Source of the DNA: Lepidurus packardi
Lineage: Eukaryota > Arthropoda > Branchiopoda > Notostraca > Triopsidae
Assembly: GCA_023053545.1 (NCBI GenBank)
Contig: JAKZAN010000089.1
Coordinates: 1 to 64,000, forward strand
Direction of reading: 5' to 3'
Length of the DNA: 64,000 nt
The notes beneath the pieces were generated by a model. The model had not been told where the DNA came from. It searched no databases and saw only the letters and a list, made by a program, of their open reading frames with translations. The first letter of the stretch is position 1. Each line of letters starts with the position of its first letter. Both the position numbers and the translations under genes were made by a program. This document shows, one piece after another, positions 981 to 64,000 of this stretch.

Positions 981-1829
981 ATGCACATGAATGACCTTAT
1001 GAATCCTTCTTTTGGCATTCAATCGTTACACGGATAGTCATCCCTTAAGCAAGAATACGCACAAACTATCCGCAATGCTTTAGAGGCAACCAGCAACGCA
1101 CCAGATATTATGCAGAATCTCAAACTACTTAAATGTTATCTATGTGAGAAGACCTTTCGTAAAAAATCAAAACTGTAAAGGCACATAAAGGAGACTCACT
1201 AAAACATAAAAAAATTTATCTGCAGTCAATGTGGCAAGTCATTTAAACGCAAATACCACCTCGACAGGCACAATCTTTCACACACAAATTAGAAAGCTCT
1301 CCAATGTAGTCAATGTGTGATGTCATTCAACATCAAACACCATCTTGATAGACACATCAAGCTCGTCCATAATAAATAGATGTTTAAGTGTTCTTTATGT
1401 TTGATGGAGTACCGGAAAAAGAAAAGCTTGGCTAAACATTTAAAAACACATGAGGTCGAAAAGACTTCTATTTAACGAGCAAAGACGCAAGCTCTAAATG
1501 AAGGCCACTCAAAAACGAAGAGAATACGGAAGTTGAGATCTGAAAAAGCAGAAATCATGTTGTACATTTGCAATATATGCGAGGAGTCTTTTACAAAACG
1601 TTGCTCACTTATGCGCCATATCCGCCGAAATCATCATAAGATGTATCGATAGGGCTCTGCGAAGATCGAAGATACTAATCATACATTCCTAATGCCGTGC
1701 ATAGGATAGTAGGAAAAGAAATAGTCTATAAATCTGATTGATGGAAACAGCCAGGCAGATCAAGGGAAGGTCTACTGCGACGATGAAGACATTCTAGTCG
1801 AAGATGATAATAATTTGTTTGAGGCTTGA
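981..1829 (+). CDS. C2H2 zinc-finger protein (5 fingers)
   Basis: A single open frame of 282 codons runs from ATG 981 to TGA 1827-1829 when TAA/TAG are read as Glu. It holds five classical C-x2-C...H-x3-5-H fingers: about residues 53-75, 82-103, 111-133, 140-161 and 196-218. The order is a short N-terminal tail, four clustered fingers, a basic linker, finger five, and an acidic tail. In the linkers before fingers 2, 3 and 4 a TAA or TAG codon sits at or next to the Glu of the TGEKP consensus, which both supports the frame and argues that UAR is Glu here. The role is presumably nucleic-acid binding; the target is unknown. It is the most telomere-proximal convincing gene. Confidence 0.85.
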
Positions 1830-2574
1830 TGTTAGATATGCTAATGTATTTTCAGCTACCTGATGATCCAACGAATCTAGTGTAACAGTAGCAACGACTA
1901 ATTCCTATTGTTAATCAGTATTTTTAAGATATTCGGGAGAGAAATAAATCGCCAACTTTTAAAGTTATTGTTTGGAGAGAAGATTAGTTAAGATCTATTA
2001 TTCTGACATTAGTTAATGATATTTATAAATTCATTAGCAAATTTCTCAAAATGGATTCATATCCATCTGCAATCTATTTTTTATCATCCGTAAAGATAAG
2101 TAGATCTGGCCTGGGCTTTACAAACGAGAATCAATATAAGCTAAAACCAAATTAGTAGCACAGAATACTCAAAAGAATAAGATTATGCATTGATTATTGA
2201 TACTGTAGGTGAGATAGCTAAAAATCGCTTATAAAGTTATTATAAAATCAATTCAAAACTAATAGGCTTCAAAAATAGATCATCACAATTGGATAGAAAT
2301 TATTAGATACAGTAAGGTGCTAATGATATATATTTCTGATATTTTCATTTGAATGAATTCCTCATGTTAGTTGCCTCAAGGACAGGTATTTAACACGTAT
2401 AATAAACCATAAATTATCTCATCTTAATAATCACAACGCTTATCCCGATTCTGATAGGTAAAAGCCCGCTGAAACATTTGAAGTCGAGACTTAACAACTT
2501 TCCATCCCTTCGTAAACCTAATAAAATAATTTCGTATCATACTAAATCACAAGAACAATCGCTCATATTCTAAA
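1830..2574. other. AT-rich intergenic region
   Basis: About 745 bp between the zinc-finger gene and the SLC44-like gene. The composition is AT-rich, with no open frame of convincing length or similarity on either strand. It presumably holds the 3' region of the zinc-finger gene and the promoter of the transporter. I see no repeat or RNA gene. Confidence 0.5.
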
Positions 2575-4266
2575 ATGGCAGAGAAGATGATACTACACAG
2601 CACCAAACTTACACCCTTTAATTTCAGAGATGGACCTTCTAAGACCAGGACTTTAACTGACTTGTGGTGTGCCCTCATATACATGACACTTCTATTAACT
2701 GTCTTTGTTCTCGGGTTTATCTTCGTCAATTCTGGAGTTGAGAGTTATTAGAAGCCTTTTGACTACGATCATTAACCATGTTCTAGCGACTTTCCGATCC
2801 TATATATGCCTAATCCGACGACTTTTGAAAGTACTTGCATAAAAAACTGTCCTAAAATTGCGGGAGTTCCTCTTCAGTGTCGACCCAATTCCAGGTTTCC
2901 GGGCTGCCCAAACTCCGTTTCTGGATTACGATATGATGGAGTACAATAAATATGTACGCTACAGACCGTTTTGTCAAGTCATAAAATTAACCAAGGACTA
3001 TTCAGATTGTTCTTCAATGCGCTGCTAAAGAGTCGAAAATAAATAACAATCACAACATCTATTGCGATAGCTGTTTCACTGGTATTGTTGCTTGGTACAT
3101 TACTATTTCCTAGGCTTTTACCTTTTATCTTTGTGATGCTCCTAGAAATCTTACTGGTTCTAATTGCAGCTGGATCTTTTTACCGTTACTTCCTTGGGAA
3201 ACTCCCTTTTGTTGATTAAAACTTGAAAGTAGGGTTCGAAGGCAACAACCCATCACTCTATATCGCACTAGGCTTTAGTGTTGCAGCTCTTGTTGGTGTA
3301 TGGCTTCTAACTCGTAAATTTAAGAAAATTCACTATATAGTTGCAATCCTCAAAATAGCATCGGCGTGTTTCAGAGAAAATGTTTCTATTATGATAATAT
3401 CGTTCCTTTTGTCTGCTCTGTCGATCGTCTCAATATATATAAATTTCTTTTTGCTGTACACTGCTCAGTCTCTTGGATAAGTAGATCATAATAAGCACGG
3501 GCCTTTTGATCAGTTCAAGGTATCTCCTTCGAGCCATGTGTTCTCAATCTTCATAATAATTGAATGTATCTGGACTCATGGGGTTCTTATCGCGCTGTCA
3601 AATCTTGTATTTTAATCAATTGCAGTTCACTGGTATTTCAATGAAAGGATTCAAGGAACCAATTATAATAGACTTGAAAACTCATTTTAAACATTCGGTC
3701 TACTTTTCTGGCACTTTGGAACTATTGCAAAAGGAACTATACTGGCATATCTTCCTTAAAGAATCTTAAACTGGTCCATTTATTGTTATGCCGAAACCAT
3801 CTTACAGTCTCTACCATTTCGGGAAGCCAATGAGAGCGTATTTTATTTACGCAAAAGATGCAAGAACAACCTCCCTCAACTATACATGTTAGGAAGATTC
3901 TACGTGAATTCTGCAAAGGGTTTTATTTGGCTGCTTTCAGTATTAGTCGGATACTTTTTGCTTATACGATCTTAAGCAGAATACTTTACGCCTATAATCA
4001 ATCTCATGGCTCCCTTATTGGTAAAAATCCATTCTTTATAATCCATTAATAATTGATACTTTTTAAACGTTTAGGCTATCGCTTTTATTACGGCAGAGAT
4101 CGCAACCTACTTCATGGACTGTACCGGAACCTTGGGGGATACTATTGTTCTTATGTATACGGCTGATCTAGAAATTGAAAGACACGGATTTGGAGGTATG
4201 TAACCATTCTCATGTCCTCATAAAATACGCGGACTTTTGGAAGAACCTACTTAAGGAGTAATGTGA
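2575..4266 (+). CDS. Choline transporter-like protein (SLC44/CTL family)
   Basis: Two exons, 2575-4020 and 4075-4266, with a 54-nt GTA...TAG intron, encode 545 aa. The layout matches CTL proteins: one N-terminal membrane segment (about residues 28-46), a Cys-rich extracellular loop with the CTL-like sequence CIKNCP, then many membrane segments. A stretch reading FWHFGTIAKGT matches the conserved H-x-G-(S/T) region, and the C-terminus has the family's D-T-x-x-L-x-Y-x-x-D-x-E pattern (DTIVLMYTADLEIE). Members transport choline or ethanolamine at the plasma membrane or organelles; the substrate here is inferred only. TGA 4264-4266 ends it. Confidence 0.85.
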
Positions 4267-9169: not shown

Positions 9170-12100
9170 TCAATCGGCATTGATCTTTTCAGAAACAAGC
9201 TCCAAAAGCTTATTAGCATTTATTTCCTCTTCGTCGAACTATGTGGGGATCCATTAGAATTTATCTGATTTCTTTTGTCGTGCGATCTCGTATTCGATTC
9301 CCGTATATGCAGTTATCGGTTTCTGACTCAGGGTATATAGGTAGTAAAGATAATTGTTCTTGATATGGACCTGCGTTGTGTGTCTCACTAAGACGTTGGA
9401 GTCACTTATGCCATTTAGTCCGTCCTACGCTTTAGATTTTTTCTAAAGCGCCGCCTTGGAAACCCCGCATATGAAACACTTGTTATCTCGATCAGCGTCG
9501 ATTGTCTTTTTATTGTCACGCAGCTCGGCAAAAGTATCGATCATGATACCTGATACAATATTCGAAAACAATAGCTCCATGACCACCGCATAGAAGAGGT
9601 CTGTAAAATATCTGCCGAAACGTATGTCGTAGTCAGTTGTTCCCACTACTCCTGAAGTGTACAAAGACATAATACAGTCGCTGAGTACATCGCATTTCTC
9701 ATCTGTTTCTTCATAGATGAAAGGAAGGTACAGATCGAACTAAATTGACATCAAGTTGAAGACGAAGATAAAAGCCAGAATCAAAAGAGACACAATAAAG
9801 AGCTGTCGCATATTTCTGGTAATAGCTTCGATGACATTTTTTAGAGTTTCATTACGCGACTGAAAGATTAAGGAAAATGCAATAAGGTGGATGTGCTTAC
9901 TATGTAGTCGAAAGCGAGAAGTGAGTAGAACTCATATCCTAAAATATATCCAACCAATGACACACCGATGAAGAACAAACAGTTGATGATATCTGGCTAG
10001 TGACGAAATATACTTTTGGAACAGTCCCAATAGTCTTGCACATCGAAGTTCTCATCTGCATCTATTTTTCTCAACAGTTTCGCTGTTCTAGCCGCCTATT
10101 CTTGGTCAGTTGTCACACTCTGCATATACCTTTCGACTGAAAGTCTATATCTTAGAGTCACCCAAATGAAGCTGTAGTAAAGCGAACTAAACAACTGGAC
10201 CACACTCATTATACGTAGGATTCCATTTACTAACGGCATATTGATCATTTTTACAATTTATTTTTTGTTGTTGTTCATAGCGAAAGAAACTTGGCAGAAA
10301 ATTACGAAAAGGACTTAGATGACTAGGGTCAGAAACATGATGCGGTTATGAAGTTGGTCGAGAGTAGCCGAAGAAGCCCCAATACGATTCTGAACTTTGT
10401 AGTTCCAACTCATCTCACTATTTACTTCTGCAGATCGGGAGATAAAATCCGTAATCTTATCAATATGGGTGTCCCTTTTAATATTCTCATCCATGAGAAG
10501 CTCGGTTTAGTGACTCACTGAGAATATCGGGAGTTTTGGAAAGTAAAGGAACTGAGGCTTCTTCTGATTAACAACTTCGATGTGAAGCAAATAGTTATCG
10601 CAGATGTTCCGAATGGCCAACTCGGTCTCTGTTGCTTTGGGTTATACAATGTCAGTCACTTCAATGGGTGAAATCGACGACTTTCCATTTAACCCTCTGT
10701 ATCGAGCTTCTTGGATCACCTATTCTAGGAGCGTCTCTTTTCTCTAATCAAGAGATTTTTGATGGAGTGATAATTTCTTGATGAGGCTGAAAAGATTAAA
10801 CAGAGAATTTAGTTTCTGCTTCGTCTTCAGGTTCAGATCATTGGTAATATCTTCGCTCATAAGTACAAAGAGAGTGGCATCTGAAATGTCCTTCATCCGT
10901 GGGCACTCTCTATAAACTTCATTCAGACTATCGAGGGTTTTCTTCAGATGTTACATTATTTTGTATAAGTATTTCGCATCAAGAGATGTCAACAAAGAAC
11001 TGTAGATGTCGTCAGTATTTCCCTCAAGCAGACTAAGCCCTACTTCAACAACGAAGTCCAAAAGGTACGATAAAGAATCGGCTCGTGTATGGTCTTTTTC
11101 AGTATTTTACATATATTCCCGTATATCTTTAAAGATGCTGGTACTGCAAAGTTGGACTTGGTTCTGAGTGCATGGGATTTGAGTGACTTCAATGAAGAAC
11201 TAGGCAAGATTCTTAATAAGCTTATCTTGGCCAGGGTGAGTACTCGGATTATCGAGCAATGCTTTAAAAACTTTGACTGTCTCAGCGAGAAAGTTAACTG
11301 TGTTGTATTTGGGTTGCCCTCCTTCGTTTTTCTGCTAGCGCAGGAAGTCTTTCAAGGCAATATTATTATTTTCGCATAACAACTGAAGAAATTTATAGAC
11401 TTTACGCAGACATCGAATTCTAATATCGATCTATCTTTTGTTTTATTTATGACACACCTCTTCTGGTTTACTCTGCTACATCATTCCTTGGCTATAGAAA
11501 CAGTAGGTGTCAATGCTAGTATAGGGGGTTGTGTCCACCGGAGAGTCGGGACATTTAAATTTACCATTATTTATCTAGTTTCTAAGCTATCGAGTGAAGT
11601 TCAAAAGCTGTAAAATGACTTGGTTATCCGAATCCTGCATCAAAATCTTCAAAATGGCATCTTGACATTATGTATTACCATTGTAAAGGAACTTTATGCC
11701 GACCTCAAAAGTCTCCTCTAGCAACTAGTAATCATTAGTTTCGGTTTTGAGTATGGACAAAATCATTTAATGGAACTTAAGATTTTTAAACTCGTTTTGG
11801 ACGTTTTTGAGATGTACCTTCTCCGCCTCAGTTTGGAACATATATTTCCAAGGTTTTCTCGTATTATTAATCTTGTCATTGACCTTCTTCTAGAAGATGA
11901 GGCGCAGAAACCGTATAGACTTGATTTTGGTATCTGTTGACATATAGTCTGGGCTCTTCTTAACTAGTCTTACTATTTGTTCCAGAAATTTATTTTATGA
12001 TATTATTGGAGGATTTTATTGACTTGGAGTTTCGGGCATGGGTTAAGTTTACGTAGACGATTTACTTGTTTACTCGTTGATCTTACAACAAATTTAGACA

Positions 12101-15100
12101 AGTTCCTTGAACTAAGCATCCACCATTCTTTCTATTTACTAAGAATATTTGATTTGTCCACTTGTGATTTCCAACAAATTATTGACCTCCGACTGGATCC
12201 GTGCACTTTCGTCCTAGCCATCATGGCTGCTAAGATCCATCAGTGTCGTTATAGTACCTATTTTCATCGAAAACTATTTTTTATTGGAGTCAGTAAATTT
12301 ATCAGTTCTGCTGGATGCAAAGACTTTGGTTTCCTAATCTTCTCTTCTATCTTAGATAAAATATCTTTTGATGAACTCTGCTGCTTCTGCCTCTAGTGAA
12401 TTGATTGCCTCGGTCTACTAGTCCTAAATCACAAGTAGTTTGGAATCTTGGTGCGAATACTTATCCCGGCTCAGATCTATAGAGTAATCCAGAAAATTGT
12501 TGATATCAATGCTATCAACAAACTAACAGCATGCTCTAAAAATGTCCTGAACAATTTTAATTCTCTACTCAGATTCACCCTTTTTCTTTTTCAATCTCTT
12601 ATAGATGGAACCCAAGTCTTTGAGAGTTTCCAAAACTGCATTTACCAATTTGCAGTCTGTATTATGCTTTATCTTACTCGATATTGTTTACTGAAACTGT
12701 TGGGAGCACAGGATGTTCTGCATTGCTAAGAGATCCTCTTGGAACATTAGTTGAAGGTAGCTGACGATGTACTAATACCTTATAGAATTACTCAAAACTA
12801 TGCTTTCAATCTTATGGAGTGTCATTTTTTCTTACAATACTCCAATGTCTATTTTAAGGCTCTGCCTGAGCTCCAGAAAGTAATTCTGGAGAACAGTTTC
12901 ATCAACTATTGGTTGACTCTCCCCTTGATATAAGCGAGTCATGAATGCACGGACATAGCGGGAAACCGGCCAACATGCCCCACACACAGATAAAAAATGA
13001 GCTAAGCTCTCAAAGGTATACATATTACTGAGCTTACCTCTGTTTATAGCGTGATTGTCTTAGCTGAGTGCTAGAAGAAGGGCGAAGTATTCAGAAAGAT
13101 ATGCTAGTTCTTCCGCTAGGTCGATAGGCTGCTCGATATTATGGAGGTTTTTGACACTTTTAGTATACTTTTTAAAAAGGACGCTGATCTCAAAATATCT
13201 TTATAGAGGCGGAGTGTGGCTTTGAGAAGCAGCCAAAATCTCAGGGTTTTTCATCGGGTCAATCCAATCATCCTCAAATATTTGAATCTATATGAGATTG
13301 GGATCATTCTTTTTTGCTTCTTCGGTCCCCATATCTAGCATATTCTACAACAGCTCTTCCAGCTTCCAGCATTCTTGGAATTTGATTGTTGAAAACATCA
13401 GACTGCCCTGGTATTCACTTGACTGTAAAATTTATAGAATAATCCCCTGATTTGCAGGATTCGCTCTATTATTGTATGTGCAAAGGAGCCTCAGTATATT
13501 CAAAATCCTTGCCTTTGTAACTAGATCGACTGCCTTCTCGCTACAGTGACTAAGTAATTGGGGCACCACTGTTGACACGAAGTTCTTATCAAAGAGAACT
13601 TTCCTATTATTGCGGATCATCTATGCGAAAAAGTCAGTCGAGTTCCCGAAGAAAACAAGATGAGCAATCGCAAAACTAAAATCTGGTATCAGTTTCTTGT
13701 TTCTAGGGTTGTTAAATACTAGGAGGGTCAAGAATCTGTATATAGCCGTGGCTTCACGTTAGTTCTATTGTCCACGAGTCTTCAATGCCTTTGCTCTTTT
13801 TATCACATACTAATGTATTCGCAGATTGCCCAGTAGCTTCTGCATTAAGGTTTGTCTATTATTAAAAGGTATTTCTCGTTAATTCAAAACTTTACTCGAG
13901 ACTCTGGTCTGCTGACTGGGAGTCTTTTTGATCTAGTTTGAGAATTTTTATAGTAAGAGAATATGAGACATTAACGATTTATCGTCACAACCTGCATCGA
14001 ACTTCGCAATCCATTTCTTGGCATCGAAATAGACTTCTCTAAACTAGATGCTGCTTTTGATTATAAACGTCTCGTGAAACCTCTCAAGTAGCTACTTCTT
14101 CTGCTCATACAGTTTGAAAAGCAAGCACATTATTTTGTTGACTATCTTCACTGAGTCTACAAAAACACACTCAATTAAGCGTTTCACAACTGTCTCCCTC
14201 CTATCGAAAAAAGGATCTGCCCCTTTACCACTGTGAATACTGTTGATTTGATTGATCCAGAACTCAATATTTAAGGACTTATTCTGCTTAGTGGAAACCC
14301 GCCCAATATCAACATTGTTCTGATAGAACTGGATAAAGAATTTACTGAGCTCACCCAATTTGTTGTTATTGCAGATATCGATCTGGAGACTGAGAAGATC
14401 TATAGCATATGCTCTGGTATCTATGAGCAATCGCAGCAGACCCTTTTCTCGGCGAATCATATCTCTTACCCTTTCCAAACATTTGGGGTCATATTTCGTA
14501 TTGCTTTTTGTTGGAGAAATAACTTGATGTTTGAGCTTGATCGCAACCTATATAAGATGTTCTATGAATCTTTGATAGATGTTATCTTTTGCGTCTCTGA
14601 GGCTACTAATATTGTACTTCATTATAGATTTCATGAAGTCTAGAGCCGTATCGAGTGTCTTCAGCCTCGTGATTTTGTATTATGGTTCGAGGGACTCTTG
14701 CGCCATAAAGTTGTTTAGAAACTGCATAACAATCATATGCATTTTGTTATATTTAGCGGGTGAAGTCTGAGGACCTTGATCGGCTTATCTCTGCTAATAA
14801 ATTTCCTGGTCCCCTAGAGATGACCTTTTTGTGAATCTTTCGACATTTTCATCCTCCCAAATTGTGATGGTCTCGTTGTGCTCAAAAAGAGGAACTTAGT
14901 TTGCCTGAAAATCTGCGATTGAAATGTATTTGGCTAATTTGAGGAAAGGCTCAAAAATATTAATATTGTTTTTGTTCTTTTTCCTGTCTGAACCGGAAGT
15001 TTGGATCTTCCCAACTTTATCATCCTAGGAATTCATGTCCTCATCTGCGTATTACTCGAAGAAAGCCTGTACAACATCTAGACTCACTATGTGACTGGTT

Positions 15101-17718
15101 TCCTATTCAGCAGTGCCAACGCTCGGCAGGTTAAACTTTAAATCTGCCAACAGATTGAGCAATAGAACAATGTAGGTCCATAAGTCCTCTTTCTTAAACT
15201 TGGAGTAGTCGCTGAGATCGATAAGTTAAATGTTGGGATGAATCTTTATTTTAATTAGTTTGCTATTGGAGTTTCCTGACTTCTCGGGCATGCTGTTTTT
15301 TTCCTTGAGGATTGATTAGGTCGAAAGAGGGTATACGAACTAACCCTATTTTCCTTTCTTGCTCAGAATGAACTATCTGATAATGTACTTCTGATTCTCA
15401 CGCGCTGCGAAGTTTTTTGTCCGACAAAATCCTGAAAGCAACTGCAGACATCGATATTCTGGCGACTCCGAGGGACTCGACACTAGTTATCTGATGCATT
15501 ACCTGATGTCCGAATTCGAGATACAGTTAATTACGATAAATTTCTCACGAAGCAACTTGAGTATAAACCGATGGATATAGTCCATCTTCAACTTATAGAA
15601 TTGGCGCAGAAAAAGCTTCATCCACTTGGAAAGGTATAGTCGGCATGTATTTTCATCTGATAGGTGGTCCATCAGTTCGTAAATAGTCTGGAAAATTTCA
15701 GAGAGCCGATCCTTCTCGTATTTGCGTTTCGGTGCCGCAGTCTCCATAGTTCGCACAGCTCTCTCAGTAAAGTAGATTGCCTCGATCAGGATATTTATAA
15801 CACCAGTGCACTTGACCATCTTCATGAATTAGAAGTCTTTGGATCCAGAGCTAGTAAGGCAGTTCTTCTTCAAGTAAGAAAGGGTGCTGTTCACAATATT
15901 AAGGATGAAGTAGCTCAGATGTTGGCTGAAGAAGACAAACTCGTTTTTAGATATGCTAGACGCTTGAGGTTCGCCTTCCTAACAACTAACAGAAATACTT
16001 TCGGCCCTTCTTATCGCCTTCGAATCAAACGCGACTAACTATTTATGAGTTTGCACCTTCGTTAAGTATGGGAAAGGATGGAGTTTTTATTATTTTTTAT
16101 AGTCCTGCTTTGGGCATGCTACAGATGCATTATTACCGAAGATATTCACATAGTCTTTGAGCACATCGGAGAATCTAGTGAGTGTCTCAATACATGACAG
16201 AATTTTATTGACTTTCACCAGTTTTTCTGACTCGAACTTGAAAATCTGGAACGTGTTCTACATGGGTCCTGAGGTCGCTTTGATTCGGTATGTGCTAGTG
16301 CCCCTTCCTATTTACTCTTCAATCGCATCCACATGGATCTGCTTTAGCTACCTGTCTATGTCTAGAAATTTCTGGAAAATTTTATTGTTCGGGATAAATT
16401 TACTAATTCTTATCGTTTCTTGGTGTGTTTAATCTTCAATCGTCAACAACACTAAATCTCGATGCTTGAATCTCTAGGAGCCCTCAGCAGGATAGTTGAC
16501 AAGTCTGATGCAACCCTAGTAATTTGTACTTGCTACTTTATCATCGAGAGTAATAGCGAAGTTTTCAGTCTGTACGGACCCTTTGGGCAAGATATCAGTT
16601 ATGTAATGCTTGATATAGAACACGTTGGGGGCAAGAGGATTGGTGTTTCCCTTCTCGGATAGCCGACATGGACTGATTTCCCAGAGGCCGTCGTAAGGAA
16701 AATCATCTGGGTTGGTTTTCCTGAGAGATACGTGCCTGTTCCAGAGATCGGCAGTGAGATAACTTTTATTCTTGGTATTTCTTATGAACACAATATCATT
16801 ACTGATGATTTCAGAGTTTACGTTCATGCATTTATGCTTCACACTCTTTTTCTACAGAATGAAGTTCAGTATCAAAGCTCCATTCGACTGGTTTACAACT
16901 TCATATCTTCTCAGAGGCTCATCCTCCTTCCTCATCCCATTTGCATGAGAAGCTATTAGAAGAGGTTTTTTTATAAGTGGTCGTATCCTCCAGAATAGAT
17001 GGGCATCATCAGTCCTCGGAAAGCTCTCAACATCACTAACTCTACCAGACACTGTGGCTTTGTCTAAAAATATTTCGCTATTCTGGTCTCCGATATTCAG
17101 ATAACAGTGTGAAGACACGTGGTACAGCCGGAATTCATCTTTAGACTGTATATCCTAGGCCTATTTATCACTTTTCCTGAATCTTATGATTTTGAACTTG
17201 ATTAGAGACGAGTATTCATTGCTTAGGATTAGTTTGAATGACCCAATGCCAGTTTCGGGGCAACTGAACTCTCCTTGAAGGTAGGCTCCCGAGTTTACAT
17301 GTCTGATCACAACCTCTGCGTCGAAGGTCAGATTATCTCCTCTTAAGTTCTAAATTTTGCTCAGGAACTGGTTCTCCTATGTTTTTTTCCTACTGATGAT
17401 CATTTGGTTCTTCTGATCTTCTCTTTATGGTATAGTATCCCGGGGATTAGGTTTAAGCTATGAATTGACCTCCCGGCCCTTATTAAGAATTTCCTAATCA
17501 TGTATCTCGAAGGAAGAGTAGGGCAGAACTTCGAAAAGACTGTTGCGGAGCTCAAATTGTGTGAAATTTTTTGACTTCAGGAAATAGATGTTATTATCGG
17601 CGAACCCTTTTGATACGAGGAATCCTGATATTTTGCTGGGTCCTTTGGCATTCTTCTCGATGTCTTGGAGAGTGCAATAAATGCGAATTACATCTCCGTA
17701 GGATAGGTGCTAGCTCAT
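9170..17718 (-). CDS. ITPR: Inositol 1,4,5-trisphosphate receptor-type Ca2+ channel
   Basis: Reading the minus strand from ATG 17718 to TGA 9170-9172 gives 2835 aa, the usual IP3R length, with one intron (9860-9900, 41 nt). All conserved blocks checked lie in one frame. Order: N-terminal beta-trefoil with the S-Y-G-D-V-I-R-I start, MIR-type segments (about residues 200-400), long alpha-helical RIH-like regions, then six-helix channel at the C-terminus. The inner helix ends IMIDTFAELR, followed by CFICG and a His-x4-His pair, the C-terminal zinc site of IP3R/RyR channels, and a terminal YTG-x-E / W-I-P block. The pore loop reads SGVVGTTD instead of the usual GGGVGD. It would release Ca2+ from internal stores. 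It is divergent from the PH/papain-fold gene. Confidence 0.93.
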
Positions 17719-18359
17719 TGGAGTATTGACTTACGAAAGACTAATAGTTTAGTTTGGCAGAATTCTATGTAATTAATCTCACTTGTTGTCATAATATCCG
17801 GTTTCTAGTTCTGTTTGAATACTCGGTTGTTTTGGATATGTACATTCAAATTACCTGCGAGTGCTATAAGAATATCCACTAAGGGATTGGGCATCCTTCA
17901 AAGCTGTGCAGGGTCACAGCCCGATAATTTAGCAGGAGCTCCAGCAACTTAAAAAAACATTTTATTTCTTCTCGCTTCGAAAAATGTTAAAGTATTTAAG
18001 ATAATTTTACAGTCCCTTCAAATCATATTGACTGTACCACTAACCAAGTTACCATGTAGAATAAGTCTAGAATCCCATCTAAGTTTCAGGTTGACTCTCA
18101 CTCTTCTCTTTCCAGCCTTAACATGGAATCGCTCAAAAGCCTCATCGAACAGTCTAGTCGAAGATCTTATATCGGCGAAAGGATAGCCTTCTCTCCTCAT
18201 CCCAATAACAATGTCCTCTAAGAATTGAGTAGCTTTGATAAAAATAGCATATGTCTCAAGGATACTAAGAACAACAATCAGCACACATTTTATAGAAAAT
18301 AAGGGTTTCTGTGGGTAACACAGGCAAACTAAGGTGGGTGCAATTTTTCAGGAAACTGC
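17719..18359. promoter_or_regulatory. Divergent intergenic region between IP3R and PH/papain-fold genes
   Basis: About 640 bp between two outward-facing starts, so it should carry both promoters. A minus-strand frame at 18018-18284 is open for 88 codons and protein-like but has no ATG at its 5' end, and its relation to either gene is unclear. A second short minus-strand start at about 17896 with a possible GTA...TAG intron could be a leader or an upstream exon of the IP3R gene. Neither is supported enough to call. Confidence 0.4.
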
Positions 18360-27522: not shown

Positions 27523-28617
27523 TCAAGGTTGAGTCTGACCTGTTTGCGCTGCCTCCAATACTATTAAATGCTTATCACCATACTTGTAGAACCATTCTAA
27601 AGGAGAGGGCCCGCCTCCTAGTCTGCTATATATTGTATCGTATAGTTCCCCTTCTTTGATGTCGTCTACAGAGCTGGTTTTGGTGGCCCTTTCTAATTAT
27701 GCTTTGAGTTTAGATTCGAAAGGAAGAATGAAATTATGTTCCGGAAGCGTGGTCATTATGAAAAAGTCTGCTTCTTTTTTTACTTCCACTAAACCATGTT
27801 TGGTAGATAGGTGGTTTTTGTTCATCTTCAGTCTGTCTGGTCCCACCTGAGCGTAAGCATAGACGATATCGAATAGTCTCGACTTGCACTAGATCAACAC
27901 TTATACAATTGGTAATCCTTCGGCAGCCTTACGGGCCAGAGCTATATCAACCTCTCCTGTTTCCCTCTCTTGCCATCGACAATTCTGGTATACGATATAC
28001 TCATTGTTGCCTAGCCTCTGGAAGACCTGCTGTAGACCTTCAGTAAAACATCTTTCCTCAAACAGCTTTCCCCTGTTCACGTTATTATTGCCTGTATCTT
28101 TATCGACCTTCTCCCATTCCTCGATGACAGGCTTAAGGTATGCTTTGGCTTTGAGATACTGGTGGTATTTGGGGTCTAACTCAAGGATGCTCAGCAGTTG
28201 GTGTCTTCGCTAGATTTTGGAAACCAACTTTTGTGCATATTACTTCTGGATCTCCAGCATTCTTTCTTCCACGTTGAATTGTTCCCCATGCTTTGACAAC
28301 AATCCTTTTTATATGCTTCGATACATGATACTTGTGCTGTTCCTGATTAGAGACTCGTTGGCTTGCAGTTTCCCCAACTTTTATTATTCGACCAGATAAT
28401 TTGCATAGGTTTCTGACGGGCAGTAGTTTGTAAACCTTATGTATACATCCCTGGCGGACGCAGAAACATCGAGTTGCAGGGCCTGAAGGTGCAGATTGGC
28501 TTGTTCTCTATCTGCCTCGAAGATTGCACGGGTCCTTTTTTATGATTTCTCCGCGGGGACCCAGCTAAGACTTGAGAAAATGAATGAAGTATTTGAAGAA
28601 CTGCTTCCAATCATCAT
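27523..28617 (-). CDS. PD-(D/E)XK nuclease-fold protein, novel
   Basis: 364 aa from ATG 28617 (second in-frame ATG directly follows) to TGA 27523-27525, no intron. The N-terminal ~150 residues are helical and charged. The C-terminal half holds a restriction-endonuclease-fold core: N-R-G-K-L-F-E-E with helix, G-E-V-D-I-A-L with Asp 224, then V-L-I-E-C-K-S with Glu 243 and Lys 245, the PD-(D/E)XK signature. The codon for Glu 243 is TAG (27889-27891 on the minus strand). Downstream residues include a Q/G-rich helix and a Trp. It converges with the HEAT gene with an 82-bp gap. Possible roles are DNA or RNA cleavage in repair or DNA rearrangement; not established. Confidence 0.7.
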
Positions 28618-29088
28618 AGGGTCTCGCCTGCATAGATACCGATTCGCGGGGAAGACTCTAGGACTTTTCGGACAGCAAACAAGCCTTTATTCTCCATGAT
28701 GTTGTGGAGAGATAAGTTGTCAGATTCTAAATATATATATGTGTGTCTGTGTATACATCTGTGTATATATATGTGTATATATGAGTGTATGTGTGAGTGT
28801 GTGAATGTGTATGTAGTGTTGCCAGCGTGTATGTAGTGTTGCCAGCGTGTGCGCGAACCGACCCTCCGGTCCCTCCTTCAGCCATAGTTCAGCATGTTGG
28901 ACTGTTATAAGATGTATAATCGACTCAGCTGCCTCGTATTGGCGAATAGGATATCTTCATCTTATCGATGTCTATTGTGGGGATGCGTCAAATTGAGTCC
29001 AACATTCGTATTACCCTGAAAAGTGTGTTCTTCGATAAAGCGTATTGCTGTTATAATTAGATATCTCACTTGCCTATTTCCTGAACAA
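28618..29088. other. Divergent intergenic region
   Basis: About 470 bp between the outward-facing nuclease-fold and HBS1 genes, containing the TG/TA-rich simple repeat annotated separately. The region 28860-29088 has ordinary composition and no supported gene. Confidence 0.5.
28727..28856. repeat. TG/TA-rich simple repeat with a 20-bp tandem duplication
   Basis: A run of (TA)n and (TG)n with periods GTGTATATAT and GTGTGAGTGTG is followed by an exact tandem copy of a 20-nt unit beginning GTGTATGTAGTG and ending TTGCCAGC at about 28807-28826 and 28827-28846, then GTGTGCGCG. It lies in the divergent promoter region upstream of HBS1. Confidence 0.85.
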
Positions 29089-31001
29089 ATGTCCAGATAC
29101 ACCACCATCAGGAAGACTGTCGACGAATAGACCCAACATTATGACGACGAAGAACTCGACTCCGAAGAATGTATCATATTCTCCCAATATAACCTCACCA
29201 TGAGTTCCCAGAGTAAATGATCAGCATCATTCTCGAGGAAGTTCCCGATGCTAAAAGGAAAGCTGCCATCTGGGCTCTCCGCAAGACAGATTGCATAGAT
29301 GATGCCATCTAGATGCTATAGAGTCAGCTCAAGTAAAAGAAGAAGCCTAAGTCCCAACTTAACAATAACAATACACATCAAAACACCAAACCGGAACAGC
29401 CTAAAAAGATTTCCGAATCTAAAATCATCGAGGTCGTCGACCTTCCTTCACCATAGTTAATTCAAAGAAATTCACGAAAGCTTTCATCTTAAATAGACCA
29501 TGGTTTAAGAACGAGGAAACAGTCTTATCGGGTGGAAGAAGTGGACACACAGCACTACAATAAGGAATACCCGAAAGTCAACGACGAAATGCACCCCGTC
29601 TCATAAACGGTGTCGATTGTTGTGATTGGGCATGTTGACTCGGGCAAGTCGACCCTGGTGGGGCAGATTATGCACCAGCTCAGCGAAATCACTAAGAAGC
29701 AAATACACAAAAACTTGAAAGAATCTAAGTAGATGAACAAGGAGAGTTTTCAATTCGCATGGGTCACTGACGAGACACAGTAAGAACGGGAAAAAGGGGT
29801 CACCATCGACGTAGGCGTCAAAAATGTCAAGATAGGTGGGAGAACCATCACATTTCTGGACTCGCCAGGACATAAAGAATATATCCCGAACATGATCAGT
29901 GGAGCCGTGCAAGCAGATCATGCAGTCCTCGTTGTGGATGTATCGCGGTTTGAAAGCAGCTTCAGATTCGGAGGACAGACTAAATAGCATGCATACATCG
30001 TGCGGGCTTTGGGAGTCGGGAGTATAATAGTTGCGATTAACAAGATGGATCTGGTGGAGTGGAAAGAATAGGTTTACGACAACATTAGAAACGAACTGCT
30101 CTCTTATTTGCTTGAAATTGGGTTCCCTTAGAACAAAATAGGTTTCGTCCCGATGAGTGCATTTTTGAATGCAAATCTTATCAGCACCAGTAACCATCTC
30201 TCCCACACAATAATTCAATTCTTCTTTTAATTCCTCAGAATAGCTATCCTACTACAAAGGGCCTCCTCTTGTCTCAGTTATCAACGGTTTGCAAGTCCCG
30301 CCAAGACCTAGCGATAAGCCTTTCAGGCTCAACATAGCCAACGCTTATTAATCCGCAAGCGGAAAACTCAAAGGCCACATTATATCCGGCAAAATATAGG
30401 GTAGCAAATTATCCTTTGTTTTATGGTTGCACTAATTTTACCTTATGCATCGTCTATAGGCGGAGTAATACATCGATAAGACAAACTCATCGTGTTGCCC
30501 CTTAACTGTCAATGCCTGGTCAAGGATATTCTTCATCTGGGTGAGAAAGTGAAGTCTGCGACTGTAGGAGATAACATCGATGTCCAGTTGAAGCTAATCG
30601 ACGAGACATTCTTCGAAAATATAAAGCCGGGAAGCGTTCTATCATCACTGCAATATTCGATTCCTGTGGCCAATCACTTTATCGCAGAGATCCTGGCATT
30701 CGAACTGGAGTATCCGCTACTATGTGGCACAAGCATAGTTATATTCATCGGAGGCACAAAGTGCACGGGCCGGATCAACAGGATTCTGAAGATCTTCGAC
30801 AGCAAGAACAAAAGCAGGACTGTGAAGGAGAATGCAAAAGCTATAAATAGCAACAACTGCTGCGAACTCGAAGTTACGACTAACGAAAAAGTATGTGCAG
30901 AGCTTTTCAGCAACTTTAAGACATTCGGAAGGATAATAATGCGGGAGAAGTACTCAACTCTAGCTGTTGGTATCATCAAAAGCATTCTGCCCAACAGATG
31001 A
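29089..31001 (+). CDS. HBS1: Ribosome-rescue GTPase Hbs1
   Basis: Four exons (29089-29170, 29212-30189, 30239-30400, 30460-31001), introns 41, 49 and 59 nt, give 587 aa. An N-terminal HBS1 domain ([12 protein letters not shown], residues ~35-65) is followed by a Lys/Ser/Asn-rich linker and an EF1A-like GTPase: G1 GHVDSGKS, G3 DSPGH, G4 NKMD, then domains 2 and 3. The switch text G-V-T-I-D-V-G-V and G-G-Q-T-K-E-H-A with L-V-E-W distinguish Hbs1 from eRF3. Hbs1 with Pelota/Dom34 splits stalled ribosomes. UAR codons sit at conserved Glu positions (QT-K-UAG-HA, TQ-UAA-ERE). The first intron splits a TAG Glu codon as T|AG. Confidence 0.93.
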
Positions 31002-34213: not shown

Positions 34214-35050
34214 ATGTTTGGCAAACTGACCGCCTAGAAGTCCACAAAGACATCCACTACTACCTTCAAGAAGCCCTTTATACCGACTTCTACATTCGAA
34301 TCAACGACTTCCCAGCGTCCTCTCAAAGACACTCTCAAAACTTAAAAGATCAAGTCTAAAATCAGAGAGGACCTCTCAGGATCGGAATTTCGGTTGCTCA
34401 ACTAAGTCCTTTACAGTTCTGATAGTCGTAAGGCCAAGTAGTATTTCAAAGAAAATCCCCATCACTTCGACAAGTACCACAATGGTTTCAGGAAACAGTG
34501 TCAGAGTTGGGAAATCAATCCCGTAGATCGTATCGTACAAATGCTCTCAACAATAAAAAACTCCAAACAACTAAAGATGGTGGATTTGGGCTGTGGTGAA
34601 GCCAAGATTGAGGAGCAATTAGGTTCCTAGTTTAAAAAAATCCGATCCTACGATCTTGTGAGTACAAACTCAAGAGTGATCGCCTTAGATATCAGCAAGT
34701 TGCCTCTAAAGGCAGGAACCCAAGATATTGCTGTGTTCTGCCTGTCTCTTATGGGTATTAATTATATATAGTTCATCCTGGAAGCCATAAGAGTCCTCAA
34801 AAAAAATGGTGAACTGATCATTGCAGAAGTAGAGAGCCGGTCTCCCGACTGGGAAGCATTTGAACGAATGATTGAGTAGCTTGGATGCAGAATAAAGAGC
34901 CGGGAGGTGGAGAAATACTTCAGGATCATGTGTTTCAACAAACTGGGGGAAGTCGGAGAAATAAACTTAAATGCAACGTATGAAGGAGAACAGAGTCTGC
35001 GGGATCACTCAGGTTAGGTGTTGAAGCCGTGCATATACAAAAGAAGATGA
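34214..35050 (+). CDS. RRP8: RRP8-type rRNA adenine N1-methyltransferase
   Basis: 278 aa, single exon from ATG 34214 to TGA 35048-35050. A basic N-terminal tail precedes the Rrp8 block F-R-x-L-N-E-V-L-Y (Glu from TAA at a conserved position), H-x-G-F-x-x-Q and W-x-I-N-P-V-D-R-I. The SAM motif D-L-G-C-G-E-A-K-I follows, then F-C-L-S-L-M-G and the E-A-x-R-V-L-K-K-N-G block. Rrp8 methylates N1 of a 25S/28S rRNA adenine in the nucleolus. Length is normal for the catalytic part. Confidence 0.93.
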
Positions 35051-44734: not shown

Positions 44735-44749
44735 ACGCCTATGCCACAA

Positions 44750-45465: not shown

Positions 45466-48400
45466 ATGCCCCTTCTCAAAGTCAACGCATACTACGGTAG
45501 CAATCCTATCCGTCAGCACCAGCCCACAGCAGTTTATCGAATACCCTCTGGGAATCTGCTTTCCCTAGGTTCCCGAGGAGAAATGGTCGTATGGGATGAC
45601 ACCGCCCTCGATCCCCTATTCATCATGATTCCTGCCCTGAATAACGAAAGTGGTGGCATCATCGCTGTGGGACTCCTCAACTTTTCCAACCTCATCGACT
45701 AAGTACTCCCTCCTCTCCACAAAGCCTTTCTTTCCAAACTTCAATCATGACCGAGGTCATAATAAACAATAATTGAGGTCTAAAGAAATCGATTCCCAAA
45801 CTAGTCTCGATCCACGAAGATAACCGCTTACGTTTCTGGCGGCTGGATGACGGCATATGCATGAACTGTTCTGGTGTAGGATGTTTCGACACCCGCATCA
45901 TTGGGCTATGTTCCGACCTCAATTAAACCCGGTTTGCCTACGTGTATTCTGAAGACAATTTGATATATGTCTATGATATTTGGAAGATGACTGTCGCTGT
46001 CAAAATAACATCCATAGCACAGGAGCTCGCACCTACAGGCAACAAAATCCGTGGTCTTTGCCGCTCTAATTAAGACTAGAACACCCTACTAGTGTTGACT
46101 GACGATCAAAATGTGCTTTATAAATTGAACATAAAGGAGCTCGTGATGAACAAATGGGCGGACTTCAGAAATCTGATTGCTAACAACCAGAAGCAGATGG
46201 AAGAGTTAAGACAAATTCTGTTGAAGATGAATAGTGGGCAGGTGGAGTTTAAAATCCAAAATCTAGAGAAAGAGCCTCTCAAAGTTGGACTAATCCAGCA
46301 GCTTTTGGGACGAGAAGATCATCAATTCCTCAGAATTAAGAAATATCTAGCTTAACATGTGAGCAAAGGTCAAAGCATGCTCGATCTTGTGCACGAGACA
46401 GGAGCCAGCATTGCTAACAATCAAAGGTTCCTGAATTTGTTTCCTCCTCAACTGATTTAAACCTTCAAAAATTAAATCATCACTCAATCTTGTTTGAAGT
46501 TTATCAACAACATGTCGCCTTACTACTTTGTTGGCTGCAAGAGTGGTAGCATCTACGGATTGCCTCTCCTTGTAGATGCTGCCAAGGACAGAATCCCCAT
46601 ATTCACTCGTATATAGCACAATGACTAAAGAAAAGTCTACTCAGAGATCAAATTCTTGGGGGCCTTCAAGAACCATCTGGTTTTCAGCGATAAAACTGGA
46701 CATACTGAGATTTACAATTTAGAAAATGCTGAACTTACCATACAAGCTTCTCTTCGTTAGAACTCTTCGGTCGTCAGCAACGAAGACTGGAAGCCCATCG
46801 GCTAGCACTGCTATGGCTTAGCCTTGTCAAAGTTTCGAATTTACCAATCCAAACTTACGTCTCCAATTAAGTACATGCTCAGCACCAGCAACGTGCAACC
46901 CAAAGGTAAATACTCATTTGCAACCCATACATCCTACGATTTATTACTTCTTCTATATCAAGCTATAGAACAGCAGTCATTGACCCGCCAAGTTCAAATT
47001 GTTTCTTTTGCCCTGGAGAACAAATGTGTGTCTGTCTTCTATCCCAAAGAGCGAATCATGAAAAACCTCCGAGGCAATACTCCTGATGCCAAAGTTTATG
47101 GGGTTCTTCACTTCGAATCAGGCAACGCAGGCTATGTCGGGGTTATGACCAATTCGGGTATCCACCTCTATCGTAATGGCTACTAGCGCACCATCCGTCT
47201 TGACAATTGGGACTGGAAAGAGTATTGTAACATACATCCCAGTTCTTCTCTTGCAGCTCATGCGACTCTTCCCCTCTATAATAACTCTAAGATCTGCGAC
47301 CCTCACAGCTACCGTGAGTATCGTGAGCACTCCACTTAAAATACATACCTCATTGACTTCTCAAACCGTTACCTAACCAATACAATCGATTACACAGACC
47401 CCAGGTGCTCTCGACATCTCTTCGCCGAAATGTTTGGCACCTTTGACGAACAGAGTTACATCTCACAGAATTTCACAAATGCCTCATCGCAACAGTAGTT
47501 CCTCTAATTCTACTTTGGACCTCGTATGTTCTGCTAAAAACCTGTAGTTTCGAGCAATGCTCCTAGTGGCCTTTCAATCCTCAAGGTCCACTTCAGCAAA
47601 TACAAAAAATAGAACTGGTAAAATACTGGATTCCTCCTGCATGCAGACGTGCGCCAACAGATTGAAAGGATATTTAAGGATGATACACCATCGCCCCTAT
47701 AACTAGTCAATAGTTTCTGCTTTGTGTACCCTTGGCATTTGAATTCAGAGCTTTCACATAGCATGTATGACCTATTTGGTACTAAACGTCCATTACTCAA
47801 TTTTTTACCAACTATGCAGGGCATCGGCACCTCACTAACCATATCTCTAAAACCACACTTTTAAACTTCTAGTTTCTTGAGTTCCTATTGCGGACTCTCT
47901 CTCATGCAATACTTTACGGCAGTTTGTGGGCGGGACAACATTAATGCTACTGACTTGATGTTTAGATTTGTTGAAACCTTGACTACACGGAAAGACCCAA
48001 CCTTCAAAAATCTTGATGTAGGAGTACTTGGACAACTAACAGTAGAAGGAGGGAGTAATAGCAACATAGTAAATGCTGGATGTAATCTCATGATTTCAGC
48101 AATGATGTTAGGTGCAAATGGAGTGGGCAGTCGAGTCTAAGAGTACTTCATTTTGAACCTTAAGTATTTGGAAGAAAGCGGTAAAGGAAAACTGTTGAGT
48201 AAAGTGTAACTCTATTGGATGCTAGTGATTGGACTGGGAGCCATCTACGGGACATTTGGGGAGGGAGGACCAGTAGCCGGGAAGAGGCTCGACCTCCTGA
48301 TTAACAGGGTTGTCTCAGCCGTCGAGTAACGTCATCATTTTTAACACCTTGACTGTAATTGTGAAATCGCTGTAGCCTGCTAAACTTCGAAAAAGTACCC

Positions 48401-49298
48401 GAACTGGTGGCAATTAATATGAAGATAATGAACGAGGGAATTGAAAAATGGAAGACCCATATCGATAGTTCGAGAGCCTTTTCCCTCCTAAATACTCTTT
48501 TCGTTGTGTTCTTCTTTTATGATGGTATCGAGTACGTCGGCAAAGAAGATAAAAAATTCAATTTCTCGTTCGAACATGTCGACTCGAACACTATCCGAAG
48601 AATGAAACACAGCATTGTCAAGTAACTTCCAACACCCTTAAATGTTGTTTCTATTAATGTAACTGCGCTCTTTCAGAAGTATCGTATATTTATCTAACCA
48701 GTACCAAAATGAATTTATGCAATGCCTCAAAAAGGAGGTATCGAATCAGGACTTCCATAACATGTACCCTTGCGCTGTGGTAGAGATCCTTCGTCAATAC
48801 CTAAAATCTCAGAGACCCACTAAACACCTGGTCTTTTACATCTAACTTCTCCTCAAATGCTTGTCTCCTACCACCCCTCATCTTCGTAAGTACGTTCAAA
48901 AGAATGTCACCCAAACACTGTATCACATGTGTACATACAAAAACATTTCCTTCAACCAGCCCTCACAAAAGATAGCCCTATTGACTACTAACCACATATA
49001 TATCTATGATCTGCGGACAGCTACAAAGTGGCGCACCATCGATATTTAAGCAACGTAACCTGGCGTCTAATACATTGTGGAGATGAGTCCAAAGGGCAAC
49101 TACATTGGAGTTTTAGGAGGAAAAGGACTGCGAATTTGGAGACTCAGCAGCAGTTTCTGGAGTGGGGTGCTGGGAGCATTTTCGCAAGGGTGGACATTCG
49201 AAGTAAAGGAAGGTAGAGCGATCCGATGGGAGGAGTCGGAGGTAAGTGTGACAGTGGAGACGCAAAACCCTTCGCATAATAAAGTGTTTGTGTTGTGA
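45466..49298 (+). CDS. WDR7: WDR7/rabconnectin-3-beta-like WD40 protein
   Basis: Exons 45466-45702, 45786-48325, 48376-48621 and 48677-49298 give 1214 aa; introns of 83, 50 and 55 nt have GTA donors. The N-terminal ~400 residues form a WD40 propeller (G-E-M-V-V-W-D, N-R-L-R-F-W-R-L-D-D-G, and Y-Y-F-V-G-C-K-S-G-S-I-Y-G-L). A long helical middle follows, and the C-terminus returns to WD repeats (I-A-L-L-T-T-N-H-I-Y-I-Y-D-L-R-T-A-T-K-W-R-T-I, then M-S-P-K-G-N-Y-I-G-V-L-G-G). This propeller-helix-propeller layout is that of WDR7, partner of DMXL/Rav1 in V-ATPase regulation. A 63-nt segment at 46906-46968 could be a 3n intron. Confidence 0.75.
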
Positions 49299-58563: not shown

Positions 58564-59482
58564 ATGTCGGACAAGAGCGACAGCGAGTCAAGTCGTGGCA
58601 ACAATGACAAAAACTCCGATATCCAGAACGAAGATGACCGAGACCGTCGTCGCAACCGCTCCGAGAGCGAGGACGACCGGCGCAAGGAGTGCCACAAACT
58701 TTTCGTCACTGGGCTAGATGGAAATGTAAACACATACATATCGTTTTTGACAAGCTGTTCCACACTATTTCTGTCTTCGGCTTACCACTATCATGACCTT
58801 CACCATTTAATATTGTGTCTTAGACGAGAGAATCTGAACTAGAAAGAGAACTCGAAAAGCACTTTGCCAAATATGGCAAGCTTGATCGCATCACTGTCAA
58901 GCGAAGCAGGAACAACGAGTACTCATTCGCTTTCATCGAGTACGAGCGGGGAATCGATGGATCGTAGGCTGTCCGGAAGTAAAACTATTTATTCATGCCC
59001 AATACCAACAATATCTACAGACTCGACCAAATGGAGATTGGTGATCGCAAAATGAAGGTGGAGCTTCAAGATGACTCACGTCGTCGCAAGGACAAAAAGT
59101 AAACATCTCCATATTAATTTTTCAACTTTTAAACGAGAAAATAGTGAGGGGTGCTATATCTGCCACAAGTTCGGACACTTCGCAAGATAGTGTAGAGAAA
59201 AGCGGGACGACCGAGACCGCAGCAGCCACAGGAGACGATCTCGTTCTCGCGATTACCGTCGCAGAAGATCTTCCACACCCAGGTCCCGTTCACGCAGAAA
59301 AGATAAGGACCGCAGGAAGAAGGGCAGTAAGATCATCATCCTTATTGGGCACCTCTATATCAAATCTAACTATGGGGTTTTTAGAGAAGAGAGACAGAAG
59401 ATCAAGGTCAAGATCCAGCAAGAGATCAGACTCACGACGCAGACAGAGACGATCCAGGTCAAGATCTGATTCCTATAATTGA
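58564..59482 (+). CDS. SR splicing factor: RRM, CCHC zinc knuckle, RS domain
   Basis: Five exons (58564-58725, 58824-58978, 59021-59098, 59145-59326, 59385-59482), introns 98, 42, 46 and 58 nt, give 224 aa. An acidic/Arg N-terminal tail precedes an RRM: RNP2 K-L-F-V-T-G-L, RNP1-like Y-S-F-A-F-I-E-Y, then A-V-R-K-L-D-Q-M-E-I-G-D-R-K-M-K-V-E. A zinc knuckle C-Y-I-C-x4-H-x4-C follows, where the Glu before the last Cys is a TAG codon, and the C-terminus is an RS domain. This order is that of RSZ/SRSF7 (9G8) proteins, which act in splice-site selection and mRNA export. With four introns it is the most intron-rich gene in the window. Confidence 0.9.
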
Positions 59483-60126: not shown

Positions 60127-60771
60127 TCAGGGTTTTCGGTAGGGTTTTTTTGGGTTCAGCATACCCAGTAAGCCCTGCAGTAGTCTCTGGTTTGGATCTT
60201 CAAAAAATTTCTTCTTCTTAGGTTTAGTCAATCCTTTGATATTGGTGCGTTTCGGACTCACTTTGATGACGCGTTTGCGTAGTTCGGTACCTGTAAGCAT
60301 GACAGCATTTTCTGCGCTTGCAACGTCCTCGAATTCAACATATGCGAGTCTATGATTAAGATGTAAAGCAGATGGGTATTTAGGTATTGAGGGGCGAGCA
60401 TAGGATTTGAAAAGATATTGTTGCATTTGCAGGAAGAGCCAATCAGTGATGAATGAAAGAAATATGTGTGTGGGTTACCCTCTGGGGTTATTGGTGAACT
60501 TATCCCTTAGGATGGTCACGCGCACGATTTTGCCACAGTCCTTGAAAATTGACTCCAGTTATTATTTACTAGTGCTGTAGTCTACGTTCTCCACGAACAC
60601 AGACTTCTTGTCTTATTCACGCGTTTCCACAGCTTCAGCAATCTGCTAACTCCCTTTGCGAGAGCCCGGATGGGAGCTGTTCACGGGGGCAGGATTAGTA
60701 CTCGGGTTGTTCTACTGAGAGGGTTTTGTCTCCTTGAGCTCAGCCAAGGAGGTAGGAGCTGGTTATGCCAT
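60127..60771 (-). CDS. PABPN1: PABPN1-like nuclear poly(A)-binding RRM protein
   Basis: Exons 60479-60771 and 60127-60349 with a 129-nt intron give 171 aa. A Pro/Ser/Asn-rich N-terminal tail leads to one RRM: V-F-V-E-N-V-D-Y (RNP2), K-E-E-L-E-S-I-F-K-D-C-G-K-I, T-I-L-R-D-K-F-T-N-N-P-R-G-L-A-Y-V-E-F (RNP1), and I-K-V-S-P-K-R-T-N, a close match to the PABPN1 R-Q-I-K-V-x-P-K-R-T-N. Two adjacent TAA codons give the E-E of the conserved E-E-L-E. The tail after the RRM is basic. PABPN1 binds poly(A) tails and controls their length in the nucleus. Confidence 0.88.
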
Positions 60772-61123
60772 AGGATCTTATTAAGGAGAAAAATTAATGG
60801 ATTACAAATCACAGGAGTAGATATGTAGGAAAAGGTCTAGTTGTATTGTATGAAGAAATAGAGTAGATATAACAGGGTTTGGCCGCTAAGTCAGGGCCAG
60901 GACCATCTTATGGACATGAGAACATCATGGAAGACTGAGGCCGACGCTGATTATGTCCAGTTGCTCTTGGGAAAATATTATTTGTTGGCTTTCAAAGCAA
61001 CTGACCTTCGTGGGTCACTTCATACTCCTTAGAAATCAAAAACCTTGTCCAAAATCTATATTATTAAGTACTATAATCACATGCTGCATCCTTCCCCTCC
61101 TTTTGTTCGTCCAATTTTCTAAT
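60772..61123. other. Intergenic region
   Basis: About 350 bp between the start of the PABPN1-like gene and the end of the coiled-coil gene, both on the minus strand. It should hold the PABPN1-like promoter and the upstream gene's 3' region. No gene or RNA seen. Confidence 0.4.
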
Positions 61124-62723: not shown

Positions 62724-62913
62724 TGGTATGTCTGGCTGTCTGTTATGGTGTATGTAATTGATATTATATCAGTATTATAGTAAAGTAACTTCATTTATAG
62801 AAGATTGCAATACAATACCTGGCACTCATTCGTTGTTAGATCGAGACAATTCTTTCTTTCCTTTTTGACTCCTTTCCTCACACCTTACTTAATCCTCCAA
62901 ACGACATCACATC

Positions 62914-64000
62914 ATGTAACCCGAAGAAAACTTCATAGACTCCCTATCAAGTCTAGACTAACTTAAATAACAACATCTCCACCTCCGCTACGACGAATTG
63001 CCTAACAGCATTGCACCCAAAACTCATGCCGCACTCGTCGAGGCAAATCCTATTCTCCCTCAAGGCAACTACATCGACGCTAAGCGTGACGAACTGTTCC
63101 TCCGATATCACAATCACATGGCGTCCTTCAATACCTCCAACAGGCCTAAATTACCCAAACTCAAAATCGTTTCCCAGTCTTATTCTCAAACTGAAGCTAC
63201 TGATTCCTTCTTATACAACGACAAAGCTCGAAAAGGTAAATCCAACAGCGGCGAGAACACGTAAAGCATCTTTCATCCTGACATCGATAGAATTCAATAT
63301 CTGATTAATAACCCAGGGGCATAACTCAGCGGTTGGCAGCAGTCCACCTACGCTAATTGGACTGATTCCTACAAAGTCGGCAGAAACCCTAATCAGGTTA
63401 GTCTCAATAAAAAAAAGGTCCTGCTGCTGACTGAGAAATAAGCTACCATCACCAAATTTTATAAAAGCCCAGTGGCAGCTTCAGAAAGATCGACGGCGCT
63501 CCCGACCCACGAATTCAGCAGATTCTTGGGCGATGACTAGAGCATACTCGTATATCAGCGTCTGGATAATAGTCTCCTCAATTCTTGCGACCGGTCCGGC
63601 AAAATATTCTACAGCAGCATTTTCTTCGAAGTCAAAGATGTTGTCTCGACAACCGACAAGGGCTTACAGAATCGTCAGCCTTATAATATCTACGAAGAGT
63701 TGCAGAAGAGATATCCATTTAGCAAAGTATCTTCGACCTTCAAGCACCCCAGCAACTCCCTGCAGTTCAATTCGGAGTTCTAGGGCGGAAATCTCTTCTC
63801 TGCCCATCGGGTAAATTATCCAAATCTAACCATGTTTATCCTAAGTTGTATAATGATTGGAAGGATAATAGAAGTCAGATAGAGAGTACAACTTGTTCCT
63901 GCAGAACGACACAAATACGAAAGGATCCACACAATGGTTCTACTTCAGCGTGAGCAACCAACAAAAGACTAAGGTCCAGTTTAACATACTAAACTTCGTA
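62914..64000 (+). CDS. Cytosolic carboxypeptidase (CCP/AGBL family), N-terminal part
   Basis: Exon 1 62914-63810 and exon 2 from 63872 (61-nt GTA...TAG intron) give 342 aa before the window ends; the gene continues beyond. The N-terminal ~230 residues are divergent and partly disordered. The CCP N-domain follows: L-Q-F-N-S-E-F-E-G-G-N-L then E-Y-N-L-F-L-Q-N-D-T-N-T-K-G-S-T-Q-W-F-Y-F-S-V-S-N, the standard entry to the M14D carboxypeptidase domain, whose zinc ligands are not yet reached. CCPs shorten polyglutamate side chains or C-termini of tubulin, opposing TTLL enzymes such as the one at 31140-33200. Confidence 0.85.

Follow-up and report, generated by a model that had tools for sequence, protein, structure and literature searches.

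Probable reading of UAA and UAG as glutamate on a telomere-capped chromosome end, most likely from a peritrich ciliate

Results

Features of the window

We analysed the first 64,000 nucleotides of contig C78, hereafter the window, from a 108.6-Mb assembly made up of 344 contigs. The window begins with a telomere of C4A2 repeats (positions 1-149, + strand), and direct reading and counting give 24 CCCCAA units in its first 160 bases, with a few longer C runs. At this end of the contig, the one that was read, the sequence carries the C4A2/G4T2 telomere of a ciliate macronuclear chromosome.

Behind the telomere lies a C2H2 zinc-finger gene with in-frame TAA and TAG codons (753-1829, +), recognised through Pfam PF00096 and through its linkers, which were read by eye. 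It is followed by a RyR/IP3R-like reading frame (9784-17778, −; Pfam RIH_assoc and RYDR_ITPR), a single frame of 2665 codons that contains 44 TAA and 52 TAG (96 UAR codons, as we call the two together). Alignments identify an HBS1-like translational GTPase (29169-30998, +; rabbit HBS1L as the relative), directly followed by TGA, a tubulin-tyrosine-ligase-like (TTLL) gene (31716-33197, +; aligned to a solved relative), the methyltransferase RRP8 (34214-35050, +; aligned to the human protein), and a PABPN1-like RRM gene (60130-60924, −; also Pfam RRM_1) with TAA-TAA at an EE/QD position. A CCHC zinc knuckle, FAR-TAG-C, was seen by eye at 59179-59193 (+). The frame at 27526-28719 (−) holds the motif I-TAG-CK, which the preliminary description of this DNA had taken for a PD-(D/E)XK site; its match to HSDR_N scores 18.4 bits with TAG as Glu, under the cut-off of 25.1, and is unlisted with Gln. 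PDB searches returned no match for this frame, for the window frame 45777-48419, or for a 1254-codon frame at locus L049. Within the window, no tRNA was found by ARAGORN, and Rfam gave no match.

TAA and TAG are sense codons

With TGA as the only stop and the first 150 bases excluded, the window contains 36 frames of at least 300 codons, the longest of them 2665 codons. A set of 30 first-order random sequences averages 3.0 such frames, and none of its frames exceeds 566 codons. When all three stops are applied, the longest window frame is 240 codons. The in-frame TAA and TAG codons are real and far beyond chance, and both are sense codons. In twelve chosen frames from the window and from other loci, we counted 174 TAA and 152 TAG, or 326 UAR in 11,418 codons (~3%). 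One of these frames, HSP90-like by eye (L028:3-1055), has a single UAR in 351 codons and 10.3% GAR; the other eleven have 1.2-3.6% UAR, all above the HSP90-like frame. UAR may be avoided in this gene, which is presumably highly expressed.

Glutamate is the best reading of both codons

UAR codons were rendered as X to keep the alignments free of bias toward any amino acid, and the facing residue was taken from the best solved relative. SF3B1 provided the decisive test because it is strongly conserved: the frame at locus L027 on contig C140 is identical to the human protein at 580 of 827 positions (70%), with no gap. UAR faces Glu in seven of its nine columns, including all five TAA and two of the four TAG, the other two TAG facing Asp and Val; no UAR column (0/9) faces Gln. 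For comparison, GAA/GAG face Glu in 39 of 53 columns, CAA/CAG face Gln in 21 and Glu in 2 of 37, and AAA/AAG face Glu in 1 of 59. The UAR columns of SF3B1 match the GAR columns and differ from those of CAR and AAR.

Using the best hit for each gene, we pooled 37 columns from seven genes (SF3B1, HBS1, TTLL, RRP8, two kinases and PABPN1), the columns outside SF3B1 being read by eye. Glu columns number 4/6 in HBS1, 1/3 in TTLL, 1/5 in RRP8, 0/3 and 0/7 in the kinases, and 0/4 in PABPN1. The 15 TAA columns face Glu eight times, Asp twice, and Gly, Pro, Ala, Ile and Gln once each, with Lys at 0/15. The 22 TAG columns face Glu five times, Asp and Lys three times each, Val, Asn, Leu and Pro twice each, and Ala, Arg and Gln once each. 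Scored with BLOSUM62 odds (log10), TAA gives 5.17 for Glu, 2.91 for Asp, 2.16 for Gln and −0.02 for Lys, and TAG gives 2.87 for Glu, 1.44 for Gln, 1.22 for Lys and 0.98 for Asp, so that Glu leads for TAG by 1.4 units over Gln and 1.65 over Lys. For both codons jointly, the 37 columns give Glu 8.05, Asp 3.89, Gln 3.60, Lys 1.20 and Tyr −10.44. When SF3B1 is removed, Glu is still at the top, with a lead of 0.3 over Asp for TAA and of 0.2 over Lys for TAG. Glu is thus the best reading for each codon, clearly for TAA and moderately for TAG, and narrowly once SF3B1 is taken away. Over these seven genes, the tabulation against homologues that the preliminary description had proposed as a check comes out with Glu first for TAA and for TAG alike.

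Several positions lie outside this count: an RRP8 TAG opposite a gap, a PABPN1 TAA opposite Tyr at a frame break, N-terminal HBS1 columns aligned in yeast only, all second-best hits, and an SF3B1 TAG at the third codon from the end, beyond the alignment, which presumably would face Tyr. One kinase column that was retained (L026, facing Lys) lies in a stretch that is not significant alone (1.4 bits).

Individual sites named in the preliminary description as Glu positions differ in how well they hold. The HBS1 sites GQTK-TAG-HA and TQ-TAA-ERE correspond to Glu in the rabbit and yeast proteins alike, and TAA faces Glu in the solved relatives of TTLL (K-TAA-GYIRTS) and RRP8 (LN-TAA-VLY); two TAG of TTLL face Asn and Ala. 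Compared by hand with the C2H2 linker consensus, TGEKP, the three zinc-finger linkers differ: in TN-TAG-K, UAR clearly occupies the place of Glu, another linker carries TAA where the consensus has Thr, and the third is one residue short, so that its TAG falls at the Glu or the Lys position depending on the alignment. The TAA-TAA of PABPN1 is Glu-Glu in the relative 2m70 and Gln-Asp in the best hit, 2jwn. The statement that no site prefers Gln was too strong, since PABPN1 in 2jwn, one kinase column and one yeast HBS1 column face Gln; the totals favour Glu.

Within 29145-30998, domain II of HBS1 is broken by frame changes, which are probably short introns, and an apparent domain II resumes in another frame. 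One base out of frame, this part contains an extra TAG in GKI-TAG-G, which is not among the 37 columns and falls at what we take to be a conserved Glu of the family. Bacterial relatives of HBS1 have Ala (66/80) and Arg (79/80) at the two best HBS1 columns, which counts against Glu. We rejected this comparison as a test of the code because these relatives, presumably CysN paralogues, are not orthologues of HBS1.

Profile scores

In a first Pfam set (ten proteins, one top family each, bits summed by hand), reading TAA/TAG as Glu/Glu gives the highest score, 1303.9 bits, followed by Lys/Glu (1294.3), Glu/Lys (1293.0), Gln/Glu (1287.9), Gln/Gln (1285.6), X (1237.8) and Tyr/Tyr (1220.6). The column count over 37 positions and this score set both support the reading of TAA and TAG as Glu given in the preliminary description. 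A second set is almost flat: across the nine families, of ten, that are common to all three codes tried, Glu/Glu scores 682.1 bits, TAA as Glu with TAG as Gln 680.8, and Lys/Lys 679.1, and over all ten families TAG as Gln lies 1.1 bits under Glu. RYDR_ITPR shows the opposite trend, with 38.6 bits for Glu, 43.9 for Tyr and 44.6 for X, and the zinc-finger family PF00096 gives 61.1 bits with Gln versus 60.9 with Glu.

TGA ends genes

RRP8 ends in YKRR-TGA at the same point as the human chain. In SF3B1, three codons beyond the aligned part are followed by TGA, and the human chain likewise has three residues more; in HBS1, TGA lies four codons beyond the end of the alignment, and rabbit HBS1L ends two residues beyond it. 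Since all three genes end at TGA at, or a few residues from, the C-termini of their relatives, UGA acts as a stop, as had been proposed from the sequence.

Source assembly, tRNA, eRF1 and 18S

Several organisms contributed to the assembly. Contigs C1-C6 are six large chromosomes of 10.7-14.0 Mb each. Among 20 stretches of 5.7-10 kb sampled around tRNA genes of smaller contigs, ten resemble the window in having long frames only when TAA and TAG are read through; the standard code gives open frames in nine others, and the remaining stretch has 70% G+C. We take the ten read-through stretches to belong to the window's organism or to another that shares its code.

A conserved 3′ motif of 18S rRNA gave 21 matches in the assembly, each with one mismatch and none exact; the seven listed carry the CTACTACC form. 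Ciliates carry the CTCCTACC form of this motif. Four of the sequences were read (L050-L053): the copies on C1, C16 and C30 are almost identical to each other, with a short stretch absent from the C1 copy, and that on C329 is ~86% identical to the C16 and C30 copies. All four look, in our estimation, animal-like. Two motif searches of the assembly found no ciliate-type 18S.

The preliminary description had named tRNA-Glu with UUA or CUA anticodons as a further check and their absence as a refutation; no tRNA with either anticodon was found by pattern or among the ARAGORN genes in partial searches of this mixed assembly. Four patterns combining anticodon and T-arm gave, across the assembly and relative to a reversed control, 13/11, 8/8, 90/96 and 28/38 matches, without clear excess. 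Eighteen of these loci were run in ARAGORN (all eight of the 8-match pattern and 10 of the 13), which called Lys-UUU or Arg-UCU in ten and no tRNA in eight; the letters of the 90-match pattern were read, unfolded, and the 28-match pattern was taken as counts alone. A broader pattern gave 383 matches and was flooded by a repeat on C4. In that contig, positions 405125-452637 form a long run of short TTTAAACCGGTCTAAACCAG-like repeats with many matches to this tRNA pattern. Another pattern gave 22 matches versus 1 in the control, of which the 12 listed are all on C1 and C2, and one match lies on C206. ARAGORN found one tRNA in each of the ten ciliate-type stretches (Lys in four, Ala in two, and Asn, Met, Ile and Thr), and Arg-UCU on two further loci, L026 and L028. 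This sample holds no tRNA-Glu of any anticodon and is therefore far from complete; the Rfam search of the assembly scored 63 of 5192 tRNA candidates, and intron-bearing or unusual tRNAs would escape the searches used. Given the mixed assembly, the partial coverage of the searches and the likewise missing ciliate-type 18S, the lack of UUA and CUA tRNAs in the results does not amount to a refutation. An eRF1 N-domain match free of in-frame stops, which may belong to the ciliate or to another organism of the mixture, lies on contig C219 (13581-13973).

Discussion

The best explanation for the frames, glutamate columns, TGA gene ends and telomere observed here is that the window comes from a ciliate macronuclear chromosome, of which it forms a telomere-capped end. 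The ciliate is most likely a peritrich, and in its nuclear code UAA and UAG would both specify glutamate, with UGA as the sole stop. We consider this reading very probable. Decoding would fall to variants of tRNA-Glu that bear UUA and/or CUA as anticodons, and eRF1 would have ceased to recognise UAR.

Among known systems, the closest is the peritrich code, NCBI table 30, in which UGA is the sole stop. In our data UAA faces Glu in 8 of 15 columns, with the best score; UAG faces Glu in 5 of 22 and Asp in three more, with a moderate margin and weak backing from the second Pfam set; and UGA ends RRP8, HBS1 and SF3B1, which is compatible with rare extra use of UAR as a stop. For the peritrichs Campanella umbellaria and Carchesium polypinum, both named as analysed species in one report (PMC4967479), UAA and UAG are described as Glu, as here (PMC10553269). 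As this code has been published for peritrichs, it was already known, and the finding is real but ordinary.

The assignment to peritrichs is the most likely one on the combination of code and C4A2 telomere. The same code might instead have arisen a second time, independently, in a ciliate outside Peritrichia. The two 18S motif searches, which returned no ciliate-type sequence, leave room for such a lineage, but the portion of the literature consulted gives UAR = Glu in ciliates a single origin, in Peritrichia (PMC10553269), and we regard a second origin as unlikely.

It is also conceivable that UAA or UAG doubles as a stop in some genes. A precedent comes from the trypanosomatid Blastocrithidia nonstop, in which UAR is Glu, as here, and UAA is also a stop; its UGA, however, encodes Trp, whereas UGA stops here (PMC12153298). 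The endings of RRP8, HBS1 and SF3B1 at TGA, close to the ends of their relatives, speak against dual use, which we judge very unlikely.

More doubtful still is a glutamine reading of UAR, as in Tetrahymena and Paramecium, whose code (table 6) is common among ciliates. That code shares with the present one sense UAR and a UGA stop and differs in the amino acid. The C4A2 telomere also fits ciliates of this type, individual columns face Gln, and the small deficit of TAG as Gln in the ten families of the second Pfam set would be in line with it. Yet the SF3B1 columns separate UAR (0/9 Gln) from CAR (21/37), Gln/Gln falls 18.3 bits under Glu/Glu in the first Pfam set, and the pooled column score of Gln is 4.45 log10 units lower than that of Glu.

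Finally, the code described for Oligohymenophorea sp. PL0344, with UAG as Glu and UGA as stop, as here, and UAA as Lys rather than Glu, would be the natural alternative if the present ciliate is an oligohymenophorean, of the same class (PMC10553269), and lies 9.6 bits under Glu/Glu in the first Pfam set, but we give it almost no credence, with TAA facing Glu in 5/5 SF3B1 columns and 8/15 overall, Lys in 0/15, and scores of 5.17 for Glu against −0.02 for Lys. The present data fit the peritrich code and not that of PL0344.

The significance of reading UAA and UAG as glutamate in this organism is practical rather than conceptual. With ~3% UAR codons, annotation under the standard code would split nearly every long gene of the organism. 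The mixed assembly further illustrates that ciliate chromosomes can be carried along in an assembly where another organism dominates. Should the source of the window turn out to be a non-peritrich, it would offer a second ciliate origin of UAR = Glu to study.
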